In this document: piece after piece, positions 1-60,005 of the stretch | How positions within the stretch are numbered: the first letter of the stretch is position 1 | How the letters are laid out: each line of letters opens with the position of its first letter | Source of the DNA: Ohessyouella blattaphilus | GTDB taxonomy: Bacteria > Bacillota > Clostridia > Lachnospirales > Lachnospiraceae | Assembly (NCBI RefSeq): GCF_024721265.1 | Contig: NZ_JAMXOC010000009.1 | Location: 1 to 64,000, forward strand | Direction: 5' to 3' | Length of the DNA stretch: 64,000 nt | Notes under the pieces: generated by a model | What the model was told of the DNA's origin: nothing | Database searches by the model: none | The model's input: the letters and a program-made list of their open reading frames with translations, nothing else | Translations under genes and position numbers: made by a program

Positions 1-244
1 GCTCTGTCTCCGAAGCATACAGCTCTTCGGTTTCAGTTGTGGCAGAAAGACCAACGGTCTTACTACCTGCATCTACTCCAAGAGCAATTGGTTGCGCATG
101 AGTCGTGCTCTCATACATAAGTTGTATGGTAAACGGACAGCGTTTAACTACTTTTGCTTTACCTTCTCTAAGAAGGTGTTTTACTTTACCGTGCCTAGTG
201 GTCGGCATAAGTGGCTGTCCTTCTCTGCTTATGACATAAACCAT
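1..244 (-). CDS. iscB: IscB RNA-guided nuclease, N-terminal part (runs off window)
   Basis: Translation of the minus strand from an ATG at 244 reads 81 residues before the window ends. It starts MVYVISREGQPLMPTTRHGK, which holds the PLMP motif (residues 11-14) of the IscB PLMP/RRXRR domain. A RuvC-I segment follows, GVDAGSKTVGLSA, with the catalytic Asp at residue 58. IscB proteins, ancestors of Cas9, use an omega-RNA to cut DNA. The HNH and remaining RuvC parts would lie outside the window, so intactness is unknown. An AAAGGAG ribosome site stands 7 bases before the ATG. The long non-coding region upstream fits the omega-RNA expected for this family. An Iscb-like HNH protein of another group is the alternative. 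Confidence 0.85.
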   Translation of the reverse strand, partial: MVYVISREGQPLMPTTRHGKVKHLLREGKAKVVKRCPFTIQLMYESTTHAQPIALGVDAGSKTVGLSATTETEELYASETE

Positions 245-500
245 AAGACACTCCTTTCTGCAACTTAATGCATAACTCCGCCATTAGACGGTTAGTTGTT
301 CTTCGCCAATGTTATATAAGGTTTTACGCATACAGCACGGTTCCTACCCATCAAAACTGTTTAACCATATGCCACAGAGCCGCAGACTAGAACAGGCATC
401 CACGGGTGTCTATATATTCTTATATAACGTAGTCAGTTAAGACTTGGGCTAGTCAACAAGAGCTTTTAACAAGCTCCGTCCATAGAACTATGGGCGTGGT
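245..500 (-). ncRNA. Candidate IscB omega-RNA (HEARO-type) scaffold
   Basis: About 255 bases without a convincing ORF lie directly upstream of iscB, in the position of the HEARO/omega-RNA known for this family. Near its 5' end are two perfect or near-perfect hairpins: ATGGGCG/CGTCCAT (477-496) and GAGCTT/AAGCTC (460-476). In IscB systems the guide is the few bases just 5' of the scaffold, here about 501-523 read on the minus strand, so outside the element. The boundaries are inferred from the hairpins and the gene start; I have not folded the whole RNA. Confidence 0.65.
460..500 (-). mobile_element. Left end of the iscB-carrying IS200/IS605-like element
   Basis: Read on the minus strand, ACCACG is followed by CCCAT, a short loop and ATGGACG, giving a 7-bp subterminal hairpin (477-496). 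The same ACCACG-hairpin arrangement stands at 46113-46139 beside tnpA, in the same orientation relative to its downstream nuclease gene. This marks it as a TnpA-type left end. The tip lies near 500, only about 30 bases past the thioesterase stop codon. The right end is outside the window. Confidence 0.6.
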
Positions 501-530
501 TTATTGACAATATATCGCTCCTCTTTTGTT

Positions 531-1720: not shown

Positions 1721-1749
1721 TTTACATATTTTTCTTTCTCAATTATAAT
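1721..1749 (+). promoter_or_regulatory. Promoter of the small membrane protein gene
   Basis: TTTACA (1721-1726) and TATAAT (1744-1749) are 17 bases apart, about 40 bases before the ATG at 1789. Confidence 0.6.
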
Positions 1750-1788
1750 AGTATAAACTTAATCAATATGCAACCAAAAGGAGTACTT

Positions 1789-2019
1789 ATGCTTGATAAA
1801 CTGAAACGCGTTTTCGCCCTACTCGGCGCTATTATACTGCTAGCTATGTATGCTAACACTTTAATCTTCGCTTTGATGGATAGTCCTAAGAGTCAAGATC
1901 TCTTAAAAGCCTCCATCGCCTGTACCTTTATTATCCCTGTATTCTTATACGCCTATTCCCTGGTTTACCGAGTGATTAAGGAGAAGGAGAAAGATAAGTC
2001 CGACTCCGACGAAAAATAG
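1789..2019 (+). CDS. Small two-helix membrane protein, unknown function
   Basis: A 76-residue protein with two hydrophobic segments (about residues 8-28 and 41-62) and a highly charged tail, KEKEKDKSDSDEK. The start is set at ATG 1789 because AAAGGAG (1776-1782) precedes it at good spacing; the ATG at 1768 has no ribosome site. I recognise no family. The gene has its own promoter and is followed 27 bases after its stop by a structured repeat in the same orientation. Confidence 0.65.
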   Translation: MLDKLKRVFALLGAIILLAMYANTLIFALMDSPKSQDLLKASIACTFIIPVFLYAYSLVYRVIKEKEKDKSDSDEK

Positions 2020-2045
2020 AATGGAATGGGCTTTCCCGCTAATAC

Positions 2046-2185
2046 AATAGAATTTGCTCTTGGCAAATTCTTGCGCCTTCGGCGTGTGCTGTTGCACAAA
2101 ATTCCTAGCGCCGAAGTGCGCATTCCTAGCGGAGCGTTTTTAATTAGTGAGGAAAGTCCTCTGGACTTTCCTCACTAATTAAAAA
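2046..2185 (+). repeat. Structured intergenic repeat, copy A
   Basis: About 140 bases, matched in reverse orientation at 56221-56359. Its parts in order are: hairpin GAATTTGC/GCAAATTC (2050-2070); a long stem between 2072-2084 and 2109-2122 (TGCGCCTTCGGCG with its complement) enclosing hairpin TGTGC/GCACA (2085-2098); then a perfect 23-bp palindrome (2137-2159 with 2163-2185). The core is nearly identical between copies, whereas the terminal palindrome differs in sequence but stays paired. It lies just 3' of the small membrane protein gene. Confidence 0.85.
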
Positions 2186-2205
2186 GCAGGCGTTTACGCG
2201 CCTGC
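2181..2205 (-). terminator. Terminator of the 44-codon gene
   Basis: GCAGGCG/CGCCTGC stem (2186-2205) followed on the minus strand by TTTTT. The stop codon of the small gene lies in its loop. The T run is shared with the end of repeat copy A. Confidence 0.65.
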
Positions 2206-2328
2206 TCTTTGTGCTTCCCGTGTCATCAGAAGCTCATACATTTCATTATTTTGTCTTTCCTTGATTCGCTCAAGGTATTCTTCAATCGATATCGATTCTT
2301 TCTTTTGTTCTTTTTCCCCTGTAAACAT
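2194..2328 (-). CDS. Small 44-residue hypothetical protein downstream of purA
   Basis: An ORF too short for usual cut-offs. It begins MFTGEKEQKKESISIEEYLE and ends QRAGA. A strong GGAGGGG site lies 7 bases before the ATG at 2328, and the TAA at 2194-2196 sits in the loop of a terminator hairpin. The protein is very polar and predicted helical, with no membrane segment or cysteine. It follows purA in the same direction after 78 bases. I do not recognise it. The ribosome site, length and terminator fit a real gene. Confidence 0.6.
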   Translation of the reverse strand: MFTGEKEQKKESISIEEYLERIKERQNNEMYELLMTREAQRAGA

Positions 2329-19289: not shown

Positions 19290-19535
19290 AAAAAACTCGC
19301 TTCTAGATACTATCTAGAGGCGAGTTATCCCGCGGTTCCACTCTAATTTAAAAGCTTTGTCGCTTTCATCTCCTTTAACGCGTAACGTGCGTTTTGACGT
19401 ATTCAGCTACTTTTCCTTCACCGAATCGACTCCCGAAGGCACTTCACAAACTTTCTGTTTAAGATTACTCTCAGCCAATGCAATCTCTCTCTGGAAACTT
19501 CCTTTTTGCTACTCTTTCGTTCACAGTCTTTAAGT
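19290..19535 (-). promoter_or_regulatory. T-box leader with cysteine (TGC) specifier
   Basis: The T-box core AGTGGAACCGCGGG is at 19329-19342. Stem I has AGTA, then AGAGAGA, and on the 3' side TTTG-T-GAA-G-TGC, so the specifier is TGC (19439-19441), Cys. The terminator ACTCGC...GCGAGT with T run is at 19291-19327. Target genes cysE and cysS agree with the specifier. Confidence 0.93.
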
Positions 19536-46149: not shown

Positions 46150-46443
46150 CTACTGATTTTTAATATATTCTTGTACTAGAGAGAGGCTTTGCTCGCTAAC
46201 AGTAGCAACAAAATAACTACTCGACCAAAAGTAAGGTTTCCAGTAAAACCTCCCTACTTCTGTAGGATAATCTCGCCTGGCAAATCTTGCTGTCTTGGTT
46301 TTTAGCAGATTCATAAATTCCGTCGGCGCCATCCCTGGAGTCACTTCAAAAAGTATCGGTACCTTGCAACCAGAACAAGATGATATTGAAGAAGAAAACC
46401 CGAGCCGATTCGTGTAATAAGGTTGATTATTATTTCTGAACAT
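46150..46443 (-). pseudogene. tnpA: Decayed IS200/IS605 transposase TnpA (Y1 type)
   Basis: Only the C-terminal half is recognisable: from ILFEVTPGM on, about 68 residues (46150-46356), with the family pattern FYWKPYFWSSSYFVATV and the active-site Tyr in VQEYIKNQ. The N-terminal half with the HUH metal motif and the usual YHLVW-like start is missing; the residues before ILFEV (including SCSGCKVP) do not resemble TnpA. No such sequence was found in the other minus-strand frames of this stretch. The truncated protein cannot catalyse strand transfer. It is divergent from tnpB, as in IS605. Confidence 0.8.
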
Positions 46444-56196: not shown

Positions 56197-56225
56197 AAAA
56201 AAGAAGGCAACCGCCTTCCTTTTTT
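56197..56225 (-). terminator. Terminator after repeat copy B
   Basis: GAAGGC/GCCTTC stem followed by TTTTTT on the minus strand, ending the ilvB-ilvN-ilvE transcript after the repeat. Confidence 0.7.
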
Positions 56226-56359
56226 GTGTAATAGGAAAGTTCTTTGAACTTTCCTATTACATAAAAAGCGCTCCGCTAAGGATGCGCACTTCGGCGATAG
56301 GAACTTTGTGCAACAGCACACGCCGAAGGCGCAAGAATTTGCGGAACGCAAATTCTATT
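56221..56359 (-). repeat. Structured intergenic repeat, copy B
   Basis: Minus-strand counterpart of copy A (2046-2185). The hairpin GAATTTGC/GCAAATTC, the long TGCGCCTTCGGCG stem with its complement, and the TGTGC/GCACA hairpin are conserved base for base or nearly so. The terminal palindrome here is TGTAATAGGAAAGTTC with its complement (16 bp; 56227-56242 with 56246-56261), different from copy A's 23 bp, yet still fully paired. It begins 14 bases after the ilvE stop. Confidence 0.85.
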
Positions 56360-56372
56360 TTACCACTTCTAA

Positions 56373-59719: not shown

Positions 59720-60005
59720 AAAGCCCTAAGCCGTTCAATTAAACAGCTTAGGGCGAATAATACTATCCGTGGTACCACCTAAATTCAAAGATTGCTCTTT
59801 GCACTCATGCCAATACGGGAATCTCTTCCGATATTGCCCCTCGGTAACGTGAGGATAACGTTGAAGCCTACTAAAGATTACTCGTTCGGTCCACTGCTCA
59901 AAGGCTACTTCCCAATACCCATCACGAAGATTCTCACCAACCATCTTCTCTCTTTGCTTCCGTAGTAGAGGTACTCCTCCTTGTCATTGCATTTGTCTGA
60001 TAATT
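59720..60005 (-). promoter_or_regulatory. T-box leader of the ilvB-ilvN-ilvE operon
   Basis: The T-box core AGGTGGTACCACGG is at 59767-59780. The terminator GCCCTAAGCTG/CGGCTTAGGGC with T run lies at 59722-59755, 50 bases before ilvB. AGTA and AGAGAG of stem I are near 59955 and 59965. The specifier could not be set with confidence; by gene content Ile, Leu or Val is expected. This fills the whole 410-base gap between ilvB and the glycan operon, and an overlapping short frame is a shadow. Confidence 0.85.

Follow-up and report, generated by a model that had tools for sequence, protein, structure and literature searches.

A family of short structured repeats in Lachnospiraceae whose right end usually abuts a terminator-like hairpin in a nearly fixed orientation

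Small structured repeats dispersed between bacterial genes are known in several forms; PATE and MITE derivatives of IS200/IS605, for example, carry hairpins at both ends and show no visible target duplication. REP sequences and REPINs are extragenic palindromes for which mobilisation in trans by the RAYT (TnpA-REP) transposase, acting on single strands, has been proposed, and they are marked by a GTAG or CGTC tag beside a palindrome of 20-40 bp (PMC3733652). Among the repeats of Streptococcus pneumoniae, BOX and RUP are reported to have terminal inverted repeats and target duplications and to be enriched between convergent genes, SPRITE resembles a terminator, and T-boxes occur in a composite together with a BOX element (PMC3049150).

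Here, we describe a repeat found in a stretch of 64,000 nucleotides of the Ohessyouella blattaphilus genome (the window), which we group with the small structured interspersed repeats and which is distinguished by its docking on terminators. The window holds two copies, A and B (Table 1), presented in the first-pass annotation as dispersed and sharing three stems. This description was borne out, as their arms of 130 nt are 84% alike, lie 54,060 nt apart and occupy opposite strands. We assign a probability of roughly 0.65 to the reading that they represent non-autonomous mobile repeats of Lachnospiraceae, about 140 bp long, which insert beside terminators in one orientation and are perhaps moved as a folded single strand. 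Copy number, spread over many genera and covariance all support the initial suggestion of a dispersed, structure-conserving repeat similar to REP or MITE elements.

Table 1. Positions of the repeat copies and of adjoining features within the window
Feature	Position	Strand	Remark
Copy A, full extent (both stems, conserved 3' motif and terminal palindrome)	2043-2185	+	
Copy A, stem 1: 9-bp hairpin AGAATTTGC/GCAAATTCT close to the left end	2049-2071	+	covaries across genera (helix 1)
Copy A, stem 2: long hairpin GCGCCTTCGGCG..CGCCGAAGTGCGC with inner stem and one-sided loop	2072-2122	+	covaries across genera (helices 2-4)
Copy A, sequence-conserved 3' motif: family form GTGCGCATCC..GCGGAGCGNTTT, ATTCCTAGCGGAGCG in copy A	2116-2139	+	column counts, 77 copies
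Copy A, terminal palindrome: 23 bp, perfect (2137-2159 with 2163-2185), loop TCT	2137-2185	+	
Hairpin abutting copy A: minus strand reads AGCAGGCGCGTAAACGCCTGCT, then T-run (copy A's terminal A-run)	2185-2206	-	
83-aa ORF converging on copy A	1768-2019	+	likely small membrane protein (by reading)
Promoter-like site ahead of the 83-aa ORF	1721-1749		
Copy B, including the A-run at its right end	56215-56362 (core 56265-56362; repeat match 56233-56362)	-	
Terminator-like hairpin abutting the right end of copy B, T-run towards the element	56203-56218	+	
Probable relic: left end (about 15 nt) fused to the right end TTACATAAAA	22147-22172	+	read from sequence

On its plus strand, the element consists of stem 1, stem 2, the motif ATCC..GCGGAGCG-TTTT and a terminal palindrome ending in AAAAA, together about 140 bp. 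Both copies fold far better than their dinucleotide shuffles (z of -11.45 for copy A and -10.85 for copy B, with none of 200 shuffles as good). In the minimum-energy fold of copy B, the loop of stem 1 pairs with the GCGGAGCG motif and displaces stem 1; the three stems are the fold of the family, which differs from this minimum. The palindrome lengths of 23 bp and 16 bp reported previously were right, but the arm of copy B extends to 22 bp with one mismatch, the 16 bp being its uninterrupted perfect part.

As read from the sequence, the setting of copy A is convergent, with the 83-aa ORF at its left and, at its right, a small minus-strand ORF whose stop codon falls inside the abutting hairpin. 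On the minus strand this hairpin folds with -18.5 kcal/mol, and it may serve there as a terminator; this is our own reading, set against a consensus scan which listed it as terminator-like on the plus strand only. The scan does not list it on the minus strand because the T-run pairs into the stem there. Stem 1 of copy A was found terminator-like on the minus strand by the same scan. The hairpin GCGC-A-TCC..GGA-GCG with its T-run was considered as a plus-strand terminator; the version present in copy A has a weak fold (-6.6 kcal/mol, z of -0.48). Copy B is located behind a gene of its own orientation, and its abutting hairpin, terminator-like according to the consensus scan, displays the opposite tract too, on the far side, as judged by reading. 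The left edge of the window (1-508, minus strand) carries a HEARO RNA followed by a reading frame which, judged by its start, is probably IscB/IsrB-like and which runs off the edge. The RNA itself lies at 291-508 of the window (minus strand) and scores 139.2 bits with the Rfam family RF02033.

The genome-wide search proposed by the first-pass annotation revealed many more copies in the genome than these two. At E<=0.01, BLAST with copy A found 25 matches in the genome (3.25 Mb), among them the copy's own palindrome on the other strand. A covariance model of a 98-position core, built from 21 sequences (R1), gave 22 matches at E<=0.1, 18 of them full length and four partial. The palindrome pattern, with up to 3 mismatches allowed, occurred at 11 places, 10 within element copies and one (L328) in a shortened derivative which keeps both ends, its stem 1 passing straight into the palindrome. 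Two other copies, L021 and L022, still contain a remnant of the right arm and thus represent internal deletions keeping both ends; in the partial copies L023 and L024 such a remnant is doubtful. Both ends are not present in L019, which runs straight into the A-run, and in L025, which consists of the right part only. The probable relic precedes a hairpin on the downstream side of a tRNA-Met gene. One-sided, LINE-like truncation was considered as the rule in this genome and is ruled out by the internal deletions of L021 and L022 and by L025, L019 being compatible with it.

In the large R1 searches, where strict filters and the scoring of few candidates per genome led to an undercount and make copy counts lower bounds, matches were found in at least 61 of the 149 Lachnospiraceae genomes sampled, each from a different genus (E<=1e-3), in at least 65 of 392 genomes across the order (E<=1e-4; 58 from the same family and seven from three other families), and in at least 2 of 398 genomes across the phylum, namely that of O. 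blattaphilus and one other of the same family (G166). A pattern scan of named genomes detected at least 119 stretches. Among the stretches listed, most titles naming a family or genus refer to Lachnospiraceae or to genera which we take to be its members, and a few others occur, such as an Anaerolineaceae bin (L184, 42.1 bits with R1). The same pattern matched a single contig in IMG/VR. By reading, the copy on the IMG/VR contig L290 (211-400) has an enlarged inner arm and lies directly behind a repressor-like gene. An element of the G119 type gave no match when used as a query against phage and plasmid records. Copies A and B matched no Rfam family at the gathering threshold, and in a scan of 10 loci at E<=0.5 the element was hit only by mir-4679 and mir-283, on the bare hairpin and far below gathering. 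A family of small-RNA genes, the duplicates of which happened to sit at gene ends, would account for the strong structure and the conserved motif. Such an origin is nevertheless highly improbable, since a simple sigma-70 pattern found no promoter-like site in the direction of the element in the interval that separates copy A or copy B from the gene before it, partial copies exist, and the copy number is uneven among genera.

Covariance well beyond chance was found when copies from different genera were compared. In an alignment of 77 diverse copies, which was fitted to the covariance model and is hence biased toward it, two-sided changes occurred in 24 of 25 core pairs, and 92.1% of pair cells were standard. 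The covariation score reached 0.580, as compared with 0.168 in shuffles (0 of 500 as high) and at most 0.107 for slid partners. Two pairs of stem 2 often fail, the one at columns 40-177 in 46 of the 77 rows and the one at columns 41-176 in 49, and the 3' motif is conserved as sequence. Within the O. blattaphilus genome, the palindrome accounted for nearly all two-sided changes (20 cells, spread over all 11 counted pairs), the 26 core pairs contributing 3 cells, and for this reason the evidence for the core structure rests on the cross-genus comparison. As regards the selection on structure proposed initially, the palindrome changes seen within this genome are explicable without it: hairpin-templated copying or palindrome swapping could produce two-sided changes with no selection.

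Indeed, the palindromes vary faster and in both arms at once, as expected from swapping of modules or from arm-to-arm copying. Ten copies fetched from one genome (G311) occupy ten places and have near-identical cores, apparently a sign of recent spread; these cores are joined to different palindromes (L340-L349), as if the palindrome had been exchanged as a module. Perfect palindromes made up 73 of 125 distinct ones (arms of at least 12). When read on the plus strand, G-T mismatches outnumber A-C mismatches by 35 to 14 in the palindromes and, once two misaligned pairs are excluded, by 29 to 7 in the core, counts which are phylogenetically non-independent, and this excess suggests that folding takes place on the plus strand.

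The constant feature of the main type of the repeat is a terminator-like hairpin which abuts the right end, in a nearly fixed orientation. We assembled 175 copies, after exclusion of 15 of 85, 14 of 42, 5 of 64 and 4 of 22 rows (the same place under another locus, second matches, and cut or partial copies), and a palindrome was detected in 171 of them. At least 100 nt on both sides were available for 147 copies, 125 of the main type and 22 of a divergent G012/G119 type, and 500 nt on both sides for 90. Hairpins were scored, with a cut-off of 18, and ORFs were called by simple scripts of our own. Of the 18 copies in the O. blattaphilus genome, 16 had a strong hairpin starting no more than 14 nt from the right end, as compared with one at the left end and none in shuffled flanks. 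Over all genomes, and with these 18 copies included, the corresponding numbers outside the G012/G119 type were 89 of 125 at the right, 14 at the left and 4 after shuffling, the other 36 main-type copies being devoid of a strong right-end hairpin. The 89 docked hairpins lie close to the element, an offset of 0 being found for 51 and an offset of 1 for 15 (66 together). In controls taken from the same flanks, a hairpin was present at 37 of 451 random non-coding positions and at 22 of 105 positions after A-runs. The element-facing side of the docked hairpins was A-rich in 78 of 89 cases and the far side T-rich in 27, so that most of them read as minus-strand terminators.

Since the A-run belongs partly to the right arm of the element itself, sites without the element are of special importance. 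Four empty sites are homologous on both sides, two of them empty in G452 (L352/L390, L351/L391) and two in G001 (L015/L397, L006/L400). Each has a hairpin preceded by at least five A residues and lacks the palindrome; at L006/L400 the hairpins correspond by place and differ in sequence. At two other sites homology is confined to the right side (L003/L404, L353/L392), and there were no empty sites among the 27 Butyrivibrio loci listed. The presence of a terminator-like hairpin and an A-run, with no palindrome, at related empty sites indicates that the palindrome arrived with the element. All of these sites are diverged and their junctions are not exact to the base; at this resolution, the right end falls on the tract of the hairpin or within 1-2 bases of it. 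We saw neither a target duplication nor any conserved motif in the left flank, though the empty sites have diverged too far for the ends to be placed to the base. It might be proposed that the repeat is a MITE of a DDE transposon, with short inverted repeats and a target duplication that escaped recognition, and its size, copy number and intergenic position would be in line with such an origin. We regard this as quite improbable, because the left end (TAAAATAGAATT) and the right end (TTACATAAAAA) are, by reading, not inverted repeats of each other, and no duplication is visible at the empty sites, even if their divergence makes the resolution of this comparison low.

The G012/G119 type (L082-L120, L141-L170) is a subfamily of recent spread, near-identical at many places and common to two genera. 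It has different ends, from GTCAAGACTCGC.. to ..CCGACTGAGTTA, and many of its copies contain an added inner hairpin, CCCCCACCT..AGGTGGGGG, which resembles the ends of a Y1 element in another genome (G136). The right-end pattern was matched 50 times in G119, some places being counted on both strands. With a terminator hairpin at the right end in 4 of 22 copies and at the left end likewise in 4 of 22, this type has no preference, and docking is therefore a property of the main type and not of every relative. Three repeat cores in tandem were noted in L131 (G004) and L217 (CALWLY010000005.1), one core starting at the right end of another.

The surroundings of 90 copies of all types were examined by simple ORF calls. 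The left gene is oriented away from the element in 66 of 90 cases and the right gene toward it in 73 of 89; 55 of the 90 layouts are tandem, 18 convergent and 11 divergent, and tandem layouts form 47 of 77 in the main type taken separately. A strong hairpin accompanies main-type copies in 31 of 47 tandem, 16 of 16 convergent and 6 of 9 divergent layouts, and in 4 of 5 of the remaining layout. Thus, the location immediately downstream of a gene of like orientation, noted earlier, does hold for copies A and B, but it is a minority layout in the family, and the idea of a 3'-end structure belonging to such a preceding gene did not turn out to be the rule. Clustering of neighbouring genes revealed no mobile gene recurring beside the copies. 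Six clusters of 3-5 loci do recur, one being the antisense reading of another; from their sequences, we take them to be of ABC-transporter, cytidylate-kinase-like, methionyl- and asparaginyl-tRNA-synthetase and GntR types.

Two copies lie directly behind T-box leaders (L003, L056), and two others do so as judged by a sub-threshold score or by motif (L030, L140). A methionyl-tRNA-synthetase-like gene is the left neighbour at L030, L053, L109 and L175. These settings perhaps reflect repeated independent insertion in one kind of leader. The window itself contains two T-box leaders scoring above the Rfam gathering threshold (19313-19533 and 59746-59996, minus strand). Such positions bear on a further explanation, according to which the repeat is not mobile now and is an ancient module, a terminator or insulator, maintained for its part in termination and mainly inherited, with hairpins beside it simply because all of them mark gene ends. 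Long hairpins with A and T runs, the terminator-like character of stem 1 of copy A on the minus strand, intergenic position and ordinary-looking neighbours all suit this explanation. On the other hand, T-box leaders are not gene ends, the docking is one-sided, there are sites which have the terminator and no element, and near-identical copies occur at many places within single genomes. We therefore consider it improbable that the repeat is such an inherited module, although an element, once inserted, may add termination or insulation afterwards.

How, then, could the repeat move? Both hairpin ends are kept in several shortened copies, the orientation is almost fixed, folding appears biased to one strand, and no inverted repeats or duplications are visible; transposition of a folded single strand fits this combination best. 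In the mechanism which we envisage, an enzyme acting in trans would recognise the folded plus strand, as the excess of G-T over A-C mismatches suggests, and would hold the hairpins at both ends of the element. The right end would then be joined to the T-tract beside a terminator hairpin, in a manner resembling the handling of hairpin-ended elements by HUH/Y1 single-strand transposases. An insertion that falls behind a terminator and ahead of the following transcription unit should do the host little harm, and this would account for the spread.

Spread through RNA was ranked second, both routes being treated as candidates. Here, a plus-strand transcript would anneal by its 3' AAAAA to the T-tract of a terminator and be copied by a reverse transcriptase supplied in trans, as an analogue of a SINE. 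The fixed orientation on a hairpin plus T-tract, a kind of target known from group IIC introns, the A-rich right end and the plus-strand folding bias are consistent with this route. So are the left-truncated copies of G119 and G012 which keep the right end (L143, L147, L155, L157, L158, L161), though they come from 30 loci listed which were chosen by their right end, with some places present twice, and belong to the type without docking. The route is nonetheless unlikely, in view of the shortened copies in the O. blattaphilus genome which retain both ends, the lack of any group II intron match in Rfam scans, and the distribution of the enzyme: four of 21 element-bearing genomes (G009, G012, G103, G452) gave no match to the reverse-transcriptase domain RVT_1, and the O. 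blattaphilus genome gave just a fragment below the cut-off. More generally, one may ask if a non-autonomous element could recognise the exposed T-tract of an intrinsic terminator, together with its hairpin, as its very target, perhaps by way of a SINE-like RNA intermediate primed at that tract; we offer this new mode of transposition as a speculative and rather doubtful proposal.

For single-strand transposition, the enzyme data are mixed as well. Y1_Tnp was present in 11 of 18 element-bearing genomes and missing from seven, with nine matches, the RAYT subtype not being separated, in the O. blattaphilus genome; one of the nine is a Y1 (IS200/IS605-type) transposase gene fragment at 46153-46356 of the window (minus strand). 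Neither Y1 nor reverse transcriptase was found in G012, a genome 86% complete, and in G103. Such absence is weak evidence, because old copies can outlive their enzyme. No element copy was detected by R1 in 30 Y1 loci with flanks of about 1.5 kb, the sole match being in the viral contig L290. BLAST of five element types against the Y1 loci showed similarity to the inner hairpin in L296 and, in addition, two exact matches of 13 and 15 nt. The IS200/605-type (Y1) elements of the O. blattaphilus genome were rejected as the source of the mobiliser, their ends being different from those of the repeat.

Provided that docking is the outcome of insertion, it would clearly exemplify how a non-autonomous bacterial repeat can target safe harbours, in a family widespread among a major group of gut and rumen bacteria, of which we found no description in open-licence literature or Rfam. 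Copies located behind conditional T-box terminators may alter regulated leaders, and the mobilising enzyme, if found, would be one that inserts beside terminators instead of inside genes.

When compared with the known systems, none of which fits on all defining features tested, the repeat stands apart. BOX, RUP and SPRITE of S. pneumoniae are nearest in kind, being short, structured, intergenic and present in tens of copies; the comparison was made by their described features, BOX being defined by its boxA-boxB-boxC sequence modules. They differ in sequence and host family, and our repeat is mostly found in tandem layouts (55 of 90) and has one end on a terminator. REP sequences and REPINs are similar in form, whereas the repeat is about 140 bp long with a covarying core, and Y1_Tnp is missing in 7 of 18 genomes; moreover, two alignments (A1, A3) displayed, on reading, neither a GTAG nor a CGTC tag next to the palindrome or to stem 1. 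The likeness to derivatives of IS200/IS605 lies in the hairpins at both ends, with no target duplication visible, and in the inner hairpin of the G012/G119 type, which resembles the ends of the Y1 element in G136. In contrast to these derivatives, the left junction of the repeat is variable and has no conserved short target sequence. The right junction is a T-tract on the minus strand. Group IIC introns are nearest in target, as insertion beside a terminator stem-loop is common to both (PMC7923331) and is found in the main type and not in the G012/G119 type; they differ from the repeat in that it has no domain V/VI (no Rfam group II match) and, at 140 bp, is too short for a reverse transcriptase gene.
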